Of a stretch of 64,000 nucleotides of DNA, positions 1,874 through 9,213 are shown piece by piece (position 1 is the stretch's first letter; each line of letters opens with the position of its first letter). The notes under the pieces are model-generated. The model saw only the letters and a list, made by a program, of their open reading frames with translations, had not been told where the DNA came from and did no database searches. A program made the translations under genes and the position numbers. The DNA comes from Methylophaga sp. OBS4 (GTDB taxonomy: Bacteria; Pseudomonadota; Gammaproteobacteria; Nitrosococcales; Methylophagaceae): positions 1 to 64,000 of the forward strand of contig NZ_JAPDMV010000016.1 of NCBI RefSeq assembly GCF_026319305.1, in the 5' to 3' direction.

Positions 1874-3073
1874 TCAACCCGGCTTCCCGTCAGGCCTTGG
1901 CTTGATAAGGATAGGGGAAAACGAGACAAGAAATAGCCCATAGGCGAGAACCCACAGCACAATACTGATCCACAATAGCAGTTGCGTGTCTTCTGGCCAG
2001 ATGAGTGCGAACAAGACACGGGTGATCGCCGCGGCTAAAATCAAAACAAAACTAACAGTCATGAGAGGCTTGGCAACAATGGGTCTGCCGGTGTGACCCA
2101 GCGAAACACGTGTCATCATACTAAGTATCATTCCAGCCATTGCCCCGACGGTTAAGGCGTGAATAGCCGTGGTGATATTGAGGTTGCTCCCGGCATGATG
2201 CGCCGCAATAAGGGCCAGACCGACAGGGATGAACCAGTACGCGATATGTAATGACCATAACAGCGGATGCCGAAATGTCAGCCATATCTTCCATTGCAGG
2301 GCTCTTGCCAGTAACAGGAGTGCGGCCAGCGCATATAAGCTTGCCAGAAGTGCTTGCGGAATAAGGTTGTTGATGAAAAACAGCTGAAAAATAAAGACCA
2401 GCCACAATGTTCCCAAGGCTGTTCTATCTAACCAGCGTATTCGCGGCGCAGCTTTAGATTGGGTCGCATTGGCGGTAAACATTGGTATTACACGACCGCC
2501 AATTATCGTCATCATCAACGTGATCAGAAGAACAGCACTATGGAAAGCGTTGGTCTGCAATGCAGGGTTTTCTGTCATAACGCCCGCGTAACTCATAAGG
2601 TTACAGATACTGAGAAGTATCAGGACAGCTATCGTGAACAGGTTTCTATATTGCCTTTTCTCAAGCAGTGGCCGGGACAGCAGCCATGCGCTGATGAGCA
2701 AAAAACTTAGATCGATCAGGGCCACCAGCCATATGGGCAACGGTGAGCCAAAGAAAACGGCGATCCGCCCAAGCAGCCACAGTGCGACCAAAAAAACCAG
2801 TTGCACGCCATGCGGTGCCCTAATCCCTGTCCAGTTTTGCACCGCTGTCAGTAAAAAGCCGACAAGTACAGCGCCCACAAAGCCAAAAATCATCTCATGG
2901 CTATGCCAGAAAAGGGTATCGCCAAATGGGGCGAAGCTGAGCAATCCACCAAGGAACAGGCCCCAGATAAGCAAGACAACGATGCTGGTGGCGGCGGCAA
3001 TCAGAAACAGAGGCCTGAAAGCCAATCCGAATAACGCAAAAGATGGAATCTGTTCTCTCGCCTTCTCTGTCAT
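1874..3073 (-). CDS. nnrS: NnrS family heme-copper membrane protein
   Basis: About 400 residues, almost wholly hydrophobic with roughly 12 membrane spans. It matches NnrS proteins: an N-terminal ALFGLAFRPLFL segment, FWHSHEMIFGF with paired His, and further His in later helices (HALTVGAMAGM, SLGHTGRP) that could bind heme or copper. NnrS is known to lessen nitrosative stress from nitric oxide in denitrifiers. Two ATGs are possible, at 3082 and 3073. The Shine-Dalgarno AAGGA lies 1 nt before the first but 10 nt before the second, so 3073 is chosen. An FNR-like half site lies near 3157-3170. The role fits the nitrate reductase genes at the other end of the window. Confidence 0.9.
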   Translation of the reverse strand: MTEKAREQIPSFALFGLAFRPLFLIAAATSIVVLLIWGLFLGGLLSFAPFGDTLFWHSHEMIFGFVGAVLVGFLLTAVQNWTGIRAPHGVQLVFLVALWLLGRIAVFFGSPLPIWLVALIDLSFLLISAWLLSRPLLEKRQYRNLFTIAVLILLSICNLMSYAGVMTENPALQTNAFHSAVLLITLMMTIIGGRVIPMFTANATQSKAAPRIRWLDRTALGTLWLVFIFQLFFINNLIPQALLASLYALAALLLLARALQWKIWLTFRHPLLWSLHIAYWFIPVGLALIAAHHAGSNLNITTAIHALTVGAMAGMILSMMTRVSLGHTGRPIVAKPLMTVSFVLILAAAITRVLFALIWPEDTQLLLWISIVLWVLAYGLFLVSFSPILIKPRPDGKPG

Positions 3074-3156
3074 GAATGCCATGTCCTTACAGCCAGCCTG
3101 AGTCTGTCAAGAGATCACCATAATTAAGACTCTAAAACATCCGTTTACACTGGCTG

Positions 3157-3170
3157 TTTAATTCGATCAA
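3157..3170 (-). promoter_or_regulatory. Possible FNR/Dnr-like site upstream of nnrS
   Basis: The sequence TTTAATTCGATCAA has one perfect FNR half (ATCAA) and one degenerate half, about 90 bp before the nnrS start. FNR or Dnr control of nnrS is known in related bacteria. The match is weak and could be chance. Confidence 0.25.
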
Positions 3171-3248
3171 ATCAGCTTTCTGGTCACAATAAGCTATAGT
3201 TATGAATATGGCAAAGTCAACCGGTGGCGTTGAGTGCAAGGCGGAGCC

Positions 3249-3281
3249 GTCTGGCCATCATCTCCGTACCGATGGCCAGAC
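3249..3281 (-). terminator. Perfect 11-bp hairpin downstream of the small secreted-protein gene
   Basis: GTCTGGCCATC at 3249-3259 pairs exactly with GATGGCCAGAC at 3271-3281 across an 11-nt loop. It lies about 25 bp after the stop of the minus-strand gene 3306-3614. There is no T-run on either side, so it may be a transcript-stabilising hairpin or repeat unit rather than an intrinsic terminator. Confidence 0.5.
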
Positions 3282-3305
3282 AACACCAAAAGCAAAATGC
3301 CGGAC

Positions 3306-3614
3306 TTATTTGTCCCGCCAGTAATCATTGGCAATAGCAATAGTTTTGAATTCAATGGCAACCAATTCGGCCGCGTTCATCAGTAGTAAGGGCTCTTCTG
3401 CATATTTAGCACGAACACGATGCTTGGCAGCACTGTCAGTTTGAATCGAGCCAATGGTTTTTCGAACAATTTTGATAGCCAGTTGCCGGCCTTCATAAGG
3501 TGTTTCTGTGATGAGGCTGGGCATGTAATCCTCGGATGCTTGCATTTCACCGGCTGGCAGGCTGATTGGAGTGAGAAAGAGCGTCATTACAATGCTGGGC
3601 AGGATTTTTTTCAT
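3306..3614 (-). CDS. Small secreted protein of unknown function
   Basis: A 102-residue protein when started at the ATG at 3614, which has GGAG 8 nt upstream. The longer frame to 3674 would run through the operator region and is rejected. Residues 1-24 form a signal peptide (MKK, then a hydrophobic core, ending near the Ala-Gly after SLP). The mature part is about 80 residues, polar, without Cys, and carries no recognised motif. It is divergently paired with an OhrR/MarR-type regulator, and two palindromes lie in its promoter region, so peroxide- or antimicrobial-responsive control is likely. Its job is unknown. Confidence 0.7.
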   Translation of the reverse strand: MKKILPSIVMTLFLTPISLPAGEMQASEDYMPSLITETPYEGRQLAIKIVRKTIGSIQTDSAAKHRVRAKYAEEPLLLMNAAELVAIEFKTIAIANDYWRDK

Positions 3615-3633
3615 GACATGTCTCCGTATTATG

Positions 3634-3660
3634 TTTGTGTACAAAATGTTCGTATACAAA
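3634..3660. promoter_or_regulatory. Paired MarR/OhrR-type operator palindromes
   Basis: TTTGTGTACAAA (3634-3645) and TTCGTATACAAA (3649-3660) are two near-perfect 12-bp palindromes with centres 15 bp apart. They lie between the divergent start codons of the secreted-protein gene and the MarR/OhrR gene. Such AT-rich palindromes with a GTAC/GTATAC core suit dimeric winged-helix regulators. Autoregulation of both genes is inferred. Confidence 0.65.
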
Positions 3661-3713
3661 TATAATGTCTGCAAATCAGGTATGTCAAGTGTTATCGGAG
3701 TGCGATTATTCTA

Positions 3714-4133
3714 ATGGGGCCAATACTTAAAGATCAGGTGTGTTATGCGTTGTATTCAACGAGTGGTATTGTCACGCAGGCGTACAGTAGCTTATTGAAA
3801 CGTTTGAAGCTGACCTATCCTCAATTTGTGGTCATGATGGCGCTGTGGCAAAAGGATGGTGTTTCAGTTACCACACTGGCTCACCAGGTGGGAATCAGTA
3901 AAGCAACATTGAGCCCTATGCTCAAAAACCTTGAAGCAAGTGGCTTCCTTTACCGAAATACTGTTCCCGGCAATGACAGAGTGAAATCGATAGTTTTGAC
4001 TGAGTTAGGGACAAAGTCCGTTACAGAGGGGGAAACAATCGCTAAAGCTGCTTTGTGCGCGACAGGGCTGAGTGATGAAGAAGCCGCTACCTTGATTGGA
4101 TTGTGTAACAAGATAAAAAATAACCTCAGATAA
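3714..4133 (+). CDS. OhrR/MarR-family redox-type transcription regulator
   Basis: A 139-residue winged-helix protein. The N-terminus LKDQVCYALYS followed by LTYPQFVVMMALW matches OhrR proteins, whose equivalent Cys (here C10) is oxidised by organic peroxides to release DNA. The recognition helix region VTTLAHQVGISKATLSPMLK and the wing follow at about 52-90. Length is normal for the family. No ohr peroxiredoxin gene is adjacent; the only divergent partner is the small secreted protein at 3306-3614. Whether C10 senses peroxide, hypochlorite or another oxidant cannot be read from sequence. Confidence 0.85.
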   Translation: MGPILKDQVCYALYSTSGIVTQAYSSLLKRLKLTYPQFVVMMALWQKDGVSVTTLAHQVGISKATLSPMLKNLEASGFLYRNTVPGNDRVKSIVLTELGTKSVTEGETIAKAALCATGLSDEEAATLIGLCNKIKNNLR

Positions 4134-4403
4134 CGGTTTTCCCGAAGCAATGTATCTGATTTTTTATACTGTTTCAGACGATCAGACAGGCTTCATTGGC
4201 ATAGTTCATCAGAGTAGGGCTGTTATCAGCCAATTGGATTAGTACCATTGAAGCATGGCCAAAAAGTTAAAAAGCCTTGGGGTTTATGCCGGGTTGAATG
4301 GTGAAAAGTGGCGCACAGTGAGGCAAGACTGTAATGGAGGTTACGATAAATATATAATAAAAACAATAAGATAAACCCAGGCTTCAAGTGCAAAACCCCT
4401 TGG

Positions 4404-4433
4404 CCCCTGGTTCGGTTCCTGCTGGACCCACCA
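4404..4433 (+). other. tRNA 3'-end-like fragment (T-loop plus CCA)
   Basis: The stretch contains GGTTCGGTTCC, like a T-arm, then TGGACCC-A-CCA, like an acceptor 3' strand with discriminator and encoded CCA. No matching 5' half (GGGTCCA with D- and anticodon arms) lies upstream, and the T-stem pairs poorly, so this is not an intact tRNA. Duplicated tRNA 3' ends are commonly left by tyrosine-recombinase islands. It is directly followed by a strong terminator. Confidence 0.45.
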
Positions 4434-4441
4434 ATAAAATC

Positions 4442-4477
4442 AAAGCCTTAGCATCCAAAAAGATACTAAGGCTTTTT
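4442..4477 (+). terminator. Rho-independent terminator
   Basis: AAAGCCTTAG (4442-4451) pairs perfectly with CTAAGGCTTT (4466-4475). ATC/GAT inside the loop can extend the stem, and a T-run continues to 4477. It sits just after the tRNA-like fragment and about 190 bp before the Amt-family gene. The rest of 4134-4669 holds no gene I can support. Confidence 0.75.
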
Positions 4478-4669
4478 GCTTTTATGGCATGCCAATTCAA
4501 ATTCATCAGCACAATAATAAGCTACACCTTGCTAGACGCACATATTTTTCAGGATACCGTTACTCCTTAAGTGGTAATTACTAGGAGTAATAGACACCCC
4601 TGTTCGTCAGTACTAGAGTCGTTCTTGCCCGGTTGAATTTCACATTCACAATAAATTAAGGAACTTTCC

Positions 4670-6106
4670 ATGGCATTAGATCTCGCAACTCAATTTGCTG
4701 AGCAGGTCACACTGAACCAGCTCGTACAAAACCTTACCTATGCTCACGGCACCGTCGGGGCAATATTCGTCGTTATCGGCTTGCTTTTGATTGACGTTGG
4801 CGGCGTCCGACGACGAAACGCATTCAACGCAACAGTAGAAAAAATGATCGGCTTCTTTATAGGCTTTGCAGCCTATTTCTTAATCGGGTTCGCATTCTGG
4901 GCCTCGCAATATTATATCATGGAAGGTTACACTCTGACCGATACTATCAAGGACTGGTGGGCTGGCGGTGCACTGTCCAACTCGCTTGCCCAAAATGTAG
5001 ATCCGGCAGTGTTTCCGGGCCTGAATAACTTCCAGATCTTCATTTTCTTCCTGGCCTGCTTCGCCGGTATCATCAACGTGCTGCTGCACTTTGCGGTGTC
5101 GGAGCGCATGAAGGCGTCCGCCTATTACATCACGGCGTTCGTTGCTACCATCGTCTCTTCAGTACTCAGCTGGTGGACCTGGGGTTCTGTCGGCCCGCTC
5201 ACCAATTTGGGCTTTCACGACTTCTTCGGCGCTGGCTTTGTGTATCTGTTCCCGGCTGGTATGGCAATGGTCTTTGCCCGCACGCTTTCCCCTCGCCCCG
5301 GCATGTTCTCGGCGCACCCCAAGGTGTCTGAATATCGTGTTCCCAGCCTCGGTCTTGTTACCACCGGCGTCATGATGATCTTTGCCGCGCTGCCGATGGT
5401 GATCCTGTCCTGCCTGTTCTTCTTTGATCCTGAAGCACTGGCGGTGAGTGTGACTATGGCTGATACCAGCGTCGGCATCGCCTTCAACAACTACGGTGCA
5501 GCCTGGGCTGGCGGCGCGATAATGGGTGCTATCCTCGCTTATTCAACCCGCAAGTTCAGCTATCTGCTGCTCGGCCCGCTGGCCGGTTATGTCTCAGGTG
5601 CTTCCGGTTTCGACGTCTATGTGCCTTGGCAGATGTTCCTCGTCGCGCTTGGTTCACCAATCGTAGCTTATGTCATCTATGAGTTCATGCAGAAACGCAA
5701 TATTGATGAACACAAGCTGCTGCCGCTGTTTGCCGGGGTCGGTTCTTATGGCCTTATCATGGTTGGCCTGCTGCATGCCGGTACACCACGCGGTGGCTAT
5801 CTGGGCATCGAGGAAGGCGCGTATGCATTCCAGCATGGTGAGATCGGCATAGTGATGCAGCTGGTCGGCATCGTGGTGTGTCTTGGTTTAGGTATTATCA
5901 CGGCTATGGTGTTGTCTTTCATTCTCAAACACACAATCGGACTGAGCGTGTCGGATGAAGATCAAGCCGAAGGCCTTGATAAAGTCATCTGGGGAATTGA
6001 ACCGGATGTTGATCTGAATTCTGAAAGCAATGCGCCTTCAGTATCGTCAGCCGCAGCATCGGCCACAACCGCTGCATCATCAGCATCTACCTCAACTTCG
6101 TCCTAG
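4670..6106 (+). CDS. Amt-family (ammonium transporter-like) membrane protein lacking twin histidines
   Basis: A 478-residue protein with about 11 membrane spans and a Ser/Ala/Thr-rich tail (about 450-478). Family marks are an N-terminal GGVRRRNAFN segment, VSERMKASAY near 143-152, and a DFFGAGFVY segment with the conserved Asp (D184). In AmtB the last of these segments reads DFAGGxVVH, where His is the first pore histidine; here it is Tyr192. The second pore His region, around 355-365 (AGVGSYGLIMVG), also has no His. Ammonium conduction by the standard twin-His path is therefore doubtful. AAGGA lies 7 nt before the ATG. No glnK gene is adjacent, unusual for amt. Confidence 0.8.
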   Translation: MALDLATQFAEQVTLNQLVQNLTYAHGTVGAIFVVIGLLLIDVGGVRRRNAFNATVEKMIGFFIGFAAYFLIGFAFWASQYYIMEGYTLTDTIKDWWAGGALSNSLAQNVDPAVFPGLNNFQIFIFFLACFAGIINVLLHFAVSERMKASAYYITAFVATIVSSVLSWWTWGSVGPLTNLGFHDFFGAGFVYLFPAGMAMVFARTLSPRPGMFSAHPKVSEYRVPSLGLVTTGVMMIFAALPMVILSCLFFFDPEALAVSVTMADTSVGIAFNNYGAAWAGGAIMGAILAYSTRKFSYLLLGPLAGYVSGASGFDVYVPWQMFLVALGSPIVAYVIYEFMQKRNIDEHKLLPLFAGVGSYGLIMVGLLHAGTPRGGYLGIEEGAYAFQHGEIGIVMQLVGIVVCLGLGIITAMVLSFILKHTIGLSVSDEDQAEGLDKVIWGIEPDVDLNSESNAPSVSSAAASATTAASSASTSTSS

Positions 6107-6468
6107 TCTAACTAGAACGGCCTCCTTCCAAGGCCTTGGCACAGGGTAAGGTTAACTACCCTGATGCCGGGGCCGCGGACGCGGGTCGACATCATGATAC
6201 GCTTTCACCGAGTACACCCACCAATAACGTTAAGATCACAGCTTATGGCTGCAATCGTTGACATCAAGCCTGCAGCTTAGGCTCTCCTCTTCAACCTGTT
6301 ATCCCTTGGCAATCCTGAATCGCCACTTTTTCTCCAGACACTTACCTACCATTCTAACTGCCTTGTATAGCAACCATTAGCTGCTAAAAGATGTGGCAGT
6401 ATTAAAACCGGATTACCCTTGTTTCCCTGAGGGACTGGCACTTGGTTTTCCCGTTGCCGGCATCGCAT
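6107..6468. other. Intergenic gap; weak hairpin only
   Basis: About 360 bases lie between two convergent genes. CAGGGTA (6142-6148) and TACCCTG (6157-6163) form a 7-bp hairpin without a T-run. Nothing else is supported. Confidence 0.4.
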
Positions 6469-8016
6469 TCAACGACAAGTATCAAGTTGCAGCTTTGGTA
6501 AGCCCCAGCCAAAAACCGGATCACGGCCCGTCGCACCCAGATCATCACTTATCTGCCGTAACGTCGCGTAGAGCAACGGGCGGGCTATTGACGGGTTGCG
6601 GTTTACATAAAATGCCGCTACAGCCAGCGCATAAGGTGCAGCATAGGACGTGCCTGAGTGGTACTGACCCGAGGTTTCCAGATCGGCGGTCCAGACATCT
6701 ACGCCAGGCGCTGAAAAGTCGACATAATCACCTTGGTTAGCTGCATCATAGACTTTACCCGCGGCATCAATAGCGGTGATGGCAAACACGCCATTTATGG
6801 CGGCGGGGTAGGCGGGTTTATTGGTTAAATATTCATTACCGGTCGCGGCAAAAAGCAGCATGCCTTGCTGCAAGCTCAGTCGAACAGTGTGTTCCAGCAC
6901 GCGGTTAGCTCTGCTGCCTGAGAGTGAGATATTGACCAGCCGGACCTGCTGGCTGATCAGCCAGTCCAGCGCCTGAACGATGGCGGCTGTGGTGGCGACA
7001 GGGCCGTATTCTGATTGTTCGATAACTCCTGCAGCGTAAATCGAGGCGCCGCGTATAAGTCCCTCAAGAGCGGGATGATTATTATTGCCAAGCAGGATTA
7101 CAGCCAGCGCGCTTGCATGGCTGGCGTCTGTGGCCGGCAGCTGACTGACAAAGGACTGCCTTTGGATGTTTGTATCAACAAGGCTGGGGTGTTCTGCTGC
7201 CACCGGACCATCAATCAGACCGACTTTGAGCTTATCGAAAAAATGAGCCGGGCACTTGTTTAGATGTGGCCAGTTCATCTGCTTTTTAGCATAGAGTCTG
7301 GCGCCTCCCGCCCGGTGGTAATAGTCATTGCGGTCAATGGCAGCATCCGGGAATTGTTGCCGTAAAGTTTCGATAATGCGCTCAAGTGCTTGTTCCGGCC
7401 CTTGTGAAGTAATCAAGCTCAGGGAGAGGCTGGCAAGCCGCTGCTGACTGATGATCTGAAGACCCAGCTGGTTTAATGCGCTGATAACCGCATCGCTGTT
7501 TGTTTCGTCAACCAGAATGAGGACTTCGCCTGCCCGATAAGGTGTTTGAGAGTTAGCTTGTTCGATAGTTGAGCAGCTGTGGATTTGCAGCCCGGTTTTG
7601 GTTAATGGCGAGCTGGGCGTGGCCCTGAAAAACAGCGGGTAGGCCTGAAGTTGATGGAGATAGCGTTTATCCGGCATCGTTAACATGACTTTGTCCGGCA
7701 CCGGCGTGTGTTGTTGCAGCGGAATAAACGTAGCCTCGCTTTGCAAATACCACTGCGAGTTGAAGAGCAAGGTTTTTTGTCTGCTCTTCACCGTGAATGT
7801 TTGTCCGGCAAACAGGCAGCCATTATCAACAAGCGTGAAAAATTGTTGTTGTTCGAGCTGTGTCGGGGCCGGTTGCACGCCAGGGGCAGTCCGTGGCGGC
7901 GTTGTTTGCCGGAAAGTCGGTTCACGGGCTTCGGATGCGCCGGTATTCTGCTCGCGGGTCTCCGCCTGTCCCAGGGACAGGATAAACAGGCCAATCAGCG
8001 CTGCTGACCGTATCAT
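6469..8016 (-). CDS. S8 (subtilisin-like) serine protease, exported
   Basis: 515 residues. A signal peptide (about 1-18) is followed by a linker, a beta-rich region with Cys67 and Cys148, and an N-terminal propeptide-like fold (about 162-232). The subtilase domain runs from about 262. The catalytic triad is visible: Asp269 in GLIDGP, His300 in DASHASALA, Ser457 in SGTSYAAP, with oxyanion Asn394 in ATGNE. The start codon overlaps the anti-sigma stop (ATGA), so the two are translationally coupled. It ends the operon 10407-6469. The target is unknown; context suggests a role in the sigma/anti-sigma circuit or processing of the co-encoded surface proteins. A paralog lies at 19067-20629. Confidence 0.93.
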   Translation of the reverse strand: MIRSAALIGLFILSLGQAETREQNTGASEAREPTFRQTTPPRTAPGVQPAPTQLEQQQFFTLVDNGCLFAGQTFTVKSRQKTLLFNSQWYLQSEATFIPLQQHTPVPDKVMLTMPDKRYLHQLQAYPLFFRATPSSPLTKTGLQIHSCSTIEQANSQTPYRAGEVLILVDETNSDAVISALNQLGLQIISQQRLASLSLSLITSQGPEQALERIIETLRQQFPDAAIDRNDYYHRAGGARLYAKKQMNWPHLNKCPAHFFDKLKVGLIDGPVAAEHPSLVDTNIQRQSFVSQLPATDASHASALAVILLGNNNHPALEGLIRGASIYAAGVIEQSEYGPVATTAAIVQALDWLISQQVRLVNISLSGSRANRVLEHTVRLSLQQGMLLFAATGNEYLTNKPAYPAAINGVFAITAIDAAGKVYDAANQGDYVDFSAPGVDVWTADLETSGQYHSGTSYAAPYALAVAAFYVNRNPSIARPLLYATLRQISDDLGATGRDPVFGWGLPKLQLDTCR

Positions 8017-8594
8017 TTTACGATGTGGGCCGATTCAATAATGGGCTCGGACTTTAATGCTTCCAGGGCCTTTGAGGCCGTCATGCCCGGCGCAATTCTG
8101 TAGAGCCCCAGTGCGGAAGGACCGTCAATGATAGTGGCATCAAGCCGTATTAATAAGGCCCGTATTTCCGCTTCGGTGGCTGTCGGCGAGAATGTGACAT
8201 TGATGATAAGTTCAGGTTTGTCAGCCCCGGATAGCTCATCACCGGCCGGTATAAAAATATCGGGTGTGGGTGATATCAAAGTCACCGTTGTCTGCACCAG
8301 CAGTAACAATGAAGCGGCGATGGCGGCATAGCGCCAGGTTTTAACATTGGTTTTGACTGCTTTGTGGTGTTTGAGGTGATGCTGCAGTCGTTGCAGCCCC
8401 ATTTCACCGGGGCTGTTTTCTTTTTGTGGCTGTCCCTTGATGTTTTGTTGCAGCTGTTGCAGGAAAAGGATTTCATCTGCCAGTTCCGGCTTTGCAGCCA
8501 GGGCCTGTTTAACCTGCAATTTCTCTGCAGCGCTCAGCGTACCATTGACGTAAAAAGGCAGCAGTAATTCTATTTCGGCAGTTTTATCGCTCAT
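8013..8594 (-). CDS. Single-pass anti-sigma factor with protease-propeptide-like periplasmic domain
   Basis: 193 residues. The N-terminal region (about 8-45, LLPFYVNGTLSAAEK) matches the anti-sigma domain of ECF antisigma factors but lacks the HxxxCxxC zinc motif. One membrane span lies at about 86-107. The periplasmic part (about 128-193) has a beta-alpha-beta-beta-alpha-beta pattern, with segments ELIINVTFS, ATEAEIRALL and GPSALGLYRI, like the I9/propeptide fold of subtilases. It overlaps the sigma gene by 11 bp and the protease by 4 bp. GGAGGAG precedes the ATG by 9 nt. Inference: it sequesters the sigma factor and may bind or be cut by the neighbouring protease. Confidence 0.85.
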   Translation of the reverse strand: MSDKTAEIELLLPFYVNGTLSAAEKLQVKQALAAKPELADEILFLQQLQQNIKGQPQKENSPGEMGLQRLQHHLKHHKAVKTNVKTWRYAAIAASLLLLVQTTVTLISPTPDIFIPAGDELSGADKPELIINVTFSPTATEAEIRALLIRLDATIIDGPSALGLYRIAPGMTASKALEALKSEPIIESAHIVK

Positions 8595-9141
8595 GGCTGT
8601 TTACTCCTCCCAGTAGCCGCTGCAGGCATTTTTTCATCGCCTGTCTGGCATGAAACATTCTGGTTTTGACGGTGTTTTCCGGACATTGAACAATTTGTGC
8701 TATTTCCCGGTAGGACATGTCTTCAAAGAAGGTTAATTCCATCACTGCCCGATGATCGGGCTTGAGGGTGCCGATACAGTGATGAACCTGTTCTGACTCT
8801 TCTGCCTGAATAAGGCAGGAGATGGAGGCCGGTGAGTCATCTTCCAGAGTGGTTAAGGTTTCGTCCGATAAACTTTCCGGCCGCGTTTTTCTCATGCGGT
8901 CGACGGTTTTGAAATAGGCAATGCTGAACAGCCAGGTCGACACTTTTGCGCGTTTTTCAAACCGGGCGGCTTTCTGCCAGACCTCCATAAACACTTCGTT
9001 AACGATATCTGCCGCTTCAAACGCATCGGGCAGTTTTGCTTTGATAAAACGAAACAGGCGCGATTCGTAGCGAAGATAAAATTGGGCCAGGGCTTGTTCA
9101 TCACCTGCTGCTATCAGGTCAATCATGTGGCTGTCTTCCAT
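8584..9141 (-). CDS. ECF-type RNA polymerase sigma factor
   Basis: 185 residues from the ATG at 9141, which has AGGAG 8 nt upstream; an ATG at 9168 is also open but has a poorer site. Region 2 includes LYRYESRLFRFIKAKL-like and FxTVDRMRK segments; region 4 (about 130-175) has MELTFFEDMSYREIAQIV and NTVKTRMFHARQAMKK, the helix-turn-helix for the -35 element. Length is typical of ECF (RpoE-like) factors. It is followed by its presumed anti-sigma factor, overlapping 11 bp. Likely targets are its own operon and the surface genes around it; no promoter consensus could be derived by eye. Confidence 0.92.
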   Translation of the reverse strand: MEDSHMIDLIAAGDEQALAQFYLRYESRLFRFIKAKLPDAFEAADIVNEVFMEVWQKAARFEKRAKVSTWLFSIAYFKTVDRMRKTRPESLSDETLTTLEDDSPASISCLIQAEESEQVHHCIGTLKPDHRAVMELTFFEDMSYREIAQIVQCPENTVKTRMFHARQAMKKCLQRLLGGVNSHER

Positions 9142-9213
9142 CGCATCAGCTCCTGATTTATGAGTCATATGCGCTGTGTCCTGACGAAAAAATGACTACA
9201 GCGATACAGCTCT

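Follow-up and report, generated by a model that had tools for sequence, protein, structure and literature searches.

In the Amt/Mep/Rh family, the twin-histidine motif of the pore is the hallmark, and debate over what it does continues through engineered mutants. What is carried by a natural member of the family that lacks both histidines? This question is raised by a gene in the stretch of Methylophaga sp. OBS4 DNA analyzed here (the window, 64,000 nucleotides), to which we give the working name amtY. Genes of this kind are automatically annotated as 'ammonium transporter'. The gene and the signals preceding it are:

4670..6106, plus strand: amtY, encoding a predicted Amt/Mep/Rh-fold permease of 478 aa without twin histidines (ORF, PF00909, AlphaFold2 model, VIA-align)
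4658..4663, plus strand: Shine-Dalgarno-like AAGGAA, 5' of the amtY ATG (direct reading)
4442..4475, plus strand: terminator-like hairpin followed by a T run, between the MarR gene and amtY (inverted repeat I4)

The reading frame is intact, running from the ATG at 4670 to a stop codon that ends at 6106. Ratios of dN/dS between 0.04 and 0.17 against five orthologues, calculated with synonymous sites near saturation (a sixth pair was saturated), indicate purifying selection. As an earlier note on this DNA had stated, no glnK lies next to amtY in the window. ARAGORN found no tRNA genes 5' of amtY, and Rfam gave no matches with E up to 1 over positions 3000-7000. Loosened ARAGORN settings produced weak hits only, one ahead of amtY and two elsewhere, which were not believed. 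A perfect 12-bp direct repeat, ACCCACCAATAA, is present on both sides of amtY (4426-4437 and 6216-6227), with two matches against 0.28 expected when one mismatch is allowed; it might be a trace of the arrival of amtY away from the dmm cluster described below, or a product of chance. A row of three on the minus strand beside amtY (window 6469-9168) comprises the gene of an ECF sigma factor, an ORF of 193 aa without a match and the gene of a subtilase.

By sequence and predicted fold, AmtY is a member of the Amt/Mep/Rh superfamily. Its score against Pfam PF00909 (Ammonium_transp) is 111.4 bits, above the cut-off of 23.2. The AlphaFold2 model (mean pLDDT 80.7, pTM 0.83) is matched by VIA-align along almost its entire length to solved Amt structures, with Z of 41-44 against bacterial and archaeal Amt structures and 33-37 against Rh proteins (37 for Nitrosomonas Rh); the first unrelated family, the urea transporters, follows at about 13.9. 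The match to AmtB (2ns1) has a Z of 42.3 and an rmsd of 2.5 Å over 384 residues at 19% identity. No second domain, such as a sensor or C-terminal signalling domain, was found in a Pfam profile search, and the C-terminal tail is short and poorly conserved, with pLDDT under 50 at residues 451-478. Against the NCBIfam ammonium transporter model TIGR00836, AmtY scored 112.5 bits, below the cut-off of 343.3. This cut-off alone decides little because some Amt proteins with both histidines also miss it (185-192 and 334 bits). AmtY has neither of the twin histidines, H168 and H318 in AmtB, and so falls outside the ammonium transporter family as defined by that motif and the NCBI cut-off.

The pore residues were compared in an alignment of E. 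coli AmtB (taken from the genome record), 70 full-length AmtY proteins including that of the window, and 12 other Amt proteins. The 70 are what remains of 73 AmtY proteins after removal of three truncated ones (L100, L104, L105). The relevant codons are:

5243..5245, plus strand: Tyr192, at the place of AmtB His168 (MAFFT, hhalign; Tyr in 70/70 full-length relatives)
5729..5734, plus strand: Phe354 and Ala355, at the place of AmtB His318 (alignments)
5219..5221, plus strand: Asp184, equivalent to AmtB D160, kept (70/70)
5180..5182, plus strand: Trp171, equivalent to AmtB W148 of the periplasmic binding site, kept (70/70)
5060..5062, plus strand: Phe131, equivalent to AmtB F107 of the Phe gate, kept (70/70)
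4793..4795, plus strand: Asp42, at AmtB Y32 (70/70; Glu in the 12 other comparison Amt proteins)

MAFFT and the profile-profile method hhalign place Phe354 at the H318 position, where Phe is found in all 70 proteins, and one ungapped HMMER alignment places Ala355 there. Residue 355 varies among AmtY proteins (L, I, A, F or V); Phe354 is invariant. All 13 comparison Amt proteins carry histidine at both pore positions. The second Phe-gate residue, AmtB F215, is also kept as Phe251, in a region where the alignment is less sure, and the set of F131, F251, W171 and D184 is present in 69-70 of the 70 relatives. Further changes are from AmtB W212 to Leu241 and from N216 to Phe252. Replacement of both pore histidines is thus fixed in AmtY. 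These results agree with the earlier note, which had read Tyr192 at the His168 position, seen no histidine in the second region and recognized Asp184 as retained; no alignment placed a histidine at either pore position, the result named beforehand as counting against its reading. The fixed loss also supports its suggestion that ammonium may not pass through this protein in the usual way. AmtY resembles AmtB in predicted fold and in D160, W148 and F107, and differs from it and from other Amt proteins in lacking both histidines, in having Asp42 where these have Tyr or Glu, and in its genomic partners.

Fungal Mep1 and Mep3 likewise show a natural change at the first pore histidine, there to Glu, according to excerpts of PMC3647058. 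That residue is acidic, whereas in AmtY both positions are changed, the first to an aromatic residue and the second to Phe354 or Ala355. It could be argued that AmtY is a normal ammonium transporter that lost its histidines by accident, or that the gene is decaying, in line with the automatic annotation. This is scarcely credible: the presence of Tyr and Phe in 70/70 relatives from two classes contradicts it, as do the purifying selection on amtY and the TIGR00836 score.

Within the genus of the window, AmtY is encoded by 8 of 24 genomes, counting the window's, with identities of 79-86%, and a search of 34 further relatives gave no match. Three of 72,556 plasmid records carry AmtY (68-71% identity). 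A named genome collection yielded 69 loci at 59-86% identity, hosted by Methylophaga, Methylohalomonas, Methylonatrum, a Methylophilaceae bacterium, many Rhodobacterales and a few unexpected taxa. A tree built from 55 Amt proteins, 31 of them AmtY, unites these 31 (SH-aLRT 100) on a stem of approximately 6 changes per site, and placement of their root is uncertain because this stem is so long. Judged from these sequences, AmtY is a single long-stemmed clade of Methylophaga-like methylotrophs and Rhodobacterales. AmtY was also seen in records labelled Gaiellales (L098), Enemella evansiae (L106) and Methylophilaceae (L041), and in L106 the neighbours of amtY are 97-99% like Ponticoccus genes. 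These three cases may reflect lateral transfer, or mislabelled or contaminated assemblies.

Within the genus, AmtY follows trimethylamine dehydrogenase (TMADH). Of the 24 genomes, the 8 with AmtY all encode this enzyme, at 85-87% identity, and none of the other 16 does; among genomes at least 90% complete, it is present in 6/6 with AmtY versus 0/11 without. In Methylophaga clusters, the gene order is TmoP, TMADH, an Fe-S protein, an LRV-repeat protein, ETF beta, ETF alpha, a lumazine-synthase-like gene, dmmDABC, a TorF porin, a PAS protein, a NarX/NarL-like pair, an EutQ-like cupin and AmtY, which puts TMADH and AmtY at opposite ends of the island. Four genomes without AmtY (G002, G005, G014, G008; loci L137-L140) have a colinear cluster from which both TMADH and AmtY are absent, while TmoP, dmmDABC, the PAS/NarX/NarL genes and the EutQ-like cupin are retained in the same order. 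One deletion cannot explain this joint absence because the dmm and regulatory genes in between are kept. In the window genome, amtY (contig C12) and the TMADH-dmm cluster (C6) lie apart, yet both have been retained. When mapped on a DmmC tree, the AmtY/TMADH state changes four times, three of them on well-supported branches; three to four independent changes are too few for a strong sign test.

A second TMADH-like gene was noticed at G000:C9:6785-8986 (L117:6776-8986), with 65% identity to the TMADH query and a nearby cupin gene that is 61% identical to the cupin of a Paracoccus amine cluster. It is perhaps a dimethylamine dehydrogenase.

The dmm genes that adjoin amtY initially suggested dimethylamine as the main substrate. 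An AmtY that imports dimethylamine or monomethylamine, the products of trimethylamine oxidation, would fit the presence of DmmC (dimethylamine monooxygenase) in all 8 AmtY genomes of the genus and in 59 of the 69 AmtY genomes overall (20 within the locus; 39 of the 49 others, which were searched genome-wide). It would also fit several loci in which dmmDABC is the nearest enzyme set (L037, L053, L086). However, DmmC is encoded in 16 of the 24 genus genomes, and 8 of these 16 lack AmtY and TMADH alike; of the 10 AmtY genomes without a DmmC match, 9 have trimethylamine monooxygenase (Tmm) or a close TMADH. We lowered this reading because half of the DmmC genomes of the genus do without AmtY while TMADH matches it exactly, and now regard it as unlikely, though not negligible. 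Tmm was rejected as a universal partner in the genus, where it occurs in 10 of 24 genomes but only in 4 of the 8 with AmtY; it does hold as a partner in Rhodobacterales.

Outside the genus, the gene keeps company with methylated-amine oxidation. In Paracoccus and Ponticoccus, it is located among tmm, tdm, dmmABC, mgs/gmaS and mgd. Across the 69 loci, within a distance of 10 kb at most and often less owing to contig ends, Tmm is found in 34, DmmC in 20, Tdm in 17, MgsC in 10 and TMADH in 1, with at least one of the five in 48. Genome-wide, 67 of the 69 have Tmm or a close TMADH. In the other two, neither Tmm nor TMADH was found in L098, a Gaiellales MAG, and Tmm, the one of the two searched there, was not found in L046. 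In L041, amtY directly precedes a TMAO-permease gene and TMADH. These enzymes were identified by their scores to reference models: Tmm by 843 bits to NF058570 (cut-off 675), TMADH by 1486 bits to the solved trimethylamine dehydrogenase 1djn, and the TmoP-like permease by 810 and, in L041, 850 bits to NF053774 (cut-off 690). Pfam gave the names of DmmA and the DmmC-like haem N-demethylase. The TMADH query also found matches at 39-48% identity in Rhodobacterales, which we did not accept as TMADH. They were left out because solved histamine dehydrogenases also match TMADH, far more weakly than TMADH itself does, and such paralogues are to be expected.

The association was also examined in 248 Rhodobacterales genomes of the family of L076, a sample whose centre genome (G084) was picked for having AmtY. 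AmtY occurs in 6 of them, Tmm in 56 (including all 6 with AmtY) and DmmC in 37 (including 5 of the 6). Hypergeometric probabilities for co-occurrence with AmtY, which ignore kinship, are 1e-4 for Tmm and 3e-4 for DmmC. Most Tmm genomes do without AmtY (50/56 in this family and 6/10 in the genus), so AmtY is optional for trimethylamine use. Taken together, the distribution of AmtY agrees more closely with trimethylamine oxidation, carried out by two unrelated enzymes, than with dimethylamine oxidation.

Some of these clusters also hold Amt proteins of the usual type (L036:22882-24255, L053, L086, L055, L104), which share the Amt family and the clusters with AmtY. In contrast to AmtY, they keep both histidines (confirmed in L036 by alignment and in L055 by translation), and the AmtY stem separates the two groups in the tree, which does not include L055. 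By tblastn, a twin-histidine-group Amt and a histidine-free Amt were seen in one methylated-amine cluster in L053, L055, L086, L104 and L106. Such pairing suggests a division of labour.

AmtY might still move ammonium, as a channel or an exporter that lets out the excess NH4+ arising when methylated amines are used for carbon. AmtY shares its conserved Asp, Trp and Phe-gate residues with ammonium transporters. In the excerpts available, twin-histidine variants of AmtB become channel-like conductors of hydrated NH4+ and K+ (PMC9040831, PMC10433425), and AmtB with both histidines changed to alanine loses transport of ammonia and methylamine (PMC3647058). The ammonium function keeps some probability because AmtB without twin histidines thus lost uptake in one study and was channel-like in others. 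However, the hydration-raising variants described in those excerpts are acidic or alanine, whereas the AmtY replacements are aromatic (with Phe354 on the likelier alignment). Dimethylamine users also release NH4+, yet the four dmm-bearing clusters without TMADH have no AmtY. In addition, the window genome has three further Amt genes, each with both histidines. We judge export or leakage of ammonium to be distinctly unlikely as the function of AmtY.

In the same genome, a single 774-aa ORF (L113:7322-9646, contig C21) combines EutB and EutC of ethanolamine ammonia-lyase and stops a few bases before a twin-histidine Amt gene (L113:9650-11020). The two are possibly an ethanolamine-ammonium pair.

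The gene order in Methylophaga brings up a different role, namely that of a sensor (transceptor) signalling the presence of trimethylamine to a regulator, with little or no flux. In favour of this, amtY adjoins the PAS protein and NarX/NarL-like two-component system there, and Amt receptors are among the solved relatives (8qj3, 6eu6). Sd-Amt1 (8qpf) and the sensor Amt 6eu6 are among the solved folds closest to the AmtY model, with Z of 43.9 and 41.6. Proteins of this type carry a C-terminal signalling part. Such a part, typical of the transporter-sensors Ks-Amt5 and Sd-Amt1, is absent from AmtY, whose tail is short, poorly conserved and modelled with low confidence and in which no sensor domain was found. 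Ks-Amt5 also keeps the twin histidines, according to excerpts of PMC10433425, and AmtY does not. Different regulators are found near amtY in Rhodobacterales. The sensor is the less likely because the NarX/NarL-like system exists without AmtY, persisting in genomes that lack it, and we consider this role very unlikely. Of the two options left by the earlier note, a sensor or a carrier of another solute, the second has thus gained from the link to two trimethylamine-oxidizing enzymes and the first has lost ground.

The TorF-type porin, PAS protein, NarX/NarL-like pair and EutQ-like cupin accompany dmmDABC in many Methylophaga genomes (L038:4346-9595, L137-L140), although the TorF gene is not beside dmm in L137-L139. 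They are a candidate amine-sensing regulatory set.

Because AmtY occurs almost only in bacteria oxidizing trimethylamine, the amine that smells of fish, it is probably a door for methylated amines and not for ammonium. A methylated-amine permease, most likely for trimethylamine, is the reading that we favour, at slightly better than even chances. What the analysis shows is membership of the family, a predicted Amt fold, the invariant loss of the two pore histidines and the genomic company of the gene; substrate, direction, deprotonation and energetics are what we infer in the following scheme. An Amt-fold permease of the inner membrane would take up methylated amines, most likely trimethylamine. 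Trimethylammonium would bind on the periplasmic side, at the aromatic site that AmtY retains from Amt (Trp171, Phe131 and the region of Phe251), and be deprotonated with the help of the conserved Asp184. The neutral amine would then cross a pore lined by Tyr192 and Phe354 in place of the two histidines. Having no N-H to donate to a histidine pair and needing more room, trimethylamine would be well served by a pore with aromatic walls and a single phenolic OH. Once inside, it would be oxidized by TMADH in Methylophaga and other Gamma- and Betaproteobacteria or by Tmm in Rhodobacterales. It is an evenly balanced proposition that AmtY is a natural Amt-fold transporter of a tertiary amine in which Tyr and Phe, standing in for the twin histidines, make a pore for trimethylamine.

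Some considerations weigh against trimethylamine uptake by AmtY. Neutral trimethylamine can diffuse through membranes. In addition, the TMADH and dmm clusters also contain a TmoP-like permease of the APC (amino-acid-permease) family, a TMAO permease by name, which could bring in the amine instead. In the genus, TmoP persists in clusters without AmtY and TMADH. Further points against are the transport loss of AmtB with alanines in place of both histidines, the distance between amtY and the TMADH-dmm cluster in the window genome, the majority of Tmm genomes that do without AmtY, the exceptions L098 and L046, and the small number of independent changes within the genus. A parallel to the aromatic pore proposed here is TmaT, a sodium/trimethylamine symporter whose substrate site is an aromatic box, as described in excerpts of PMC11708041; it is a BCCT protein, unrelated to Amt in fold and mechanism. 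Among open-licence PubMed Central papers, in the excerpts available, none were found on twin-histidine loss in these proteins or proposing that an Amt carries trimethylamine. Published text excerpts do already place some amt gene with such clusters, without distinguishing AmtY from the twin-histidine type.

AmtY offers a ready experiment on the role of the histidines, because it is a natural and conserved family without them for which another substrate is strongly suggested. If the trimethylamine reading is true, AmtY would be, to our knowledge, the first known Amt with a main substrate other than ammonium. Some 'ammonium transporter' annotations in methylated-amine clusters would then be wrong. 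AmtY would also provide a candidate importer for trimethylamine, a climate-relevant marine amine, and would be the missing trimethylamine importer of TMADH methylotrophs and of part of the Roseobacter group.
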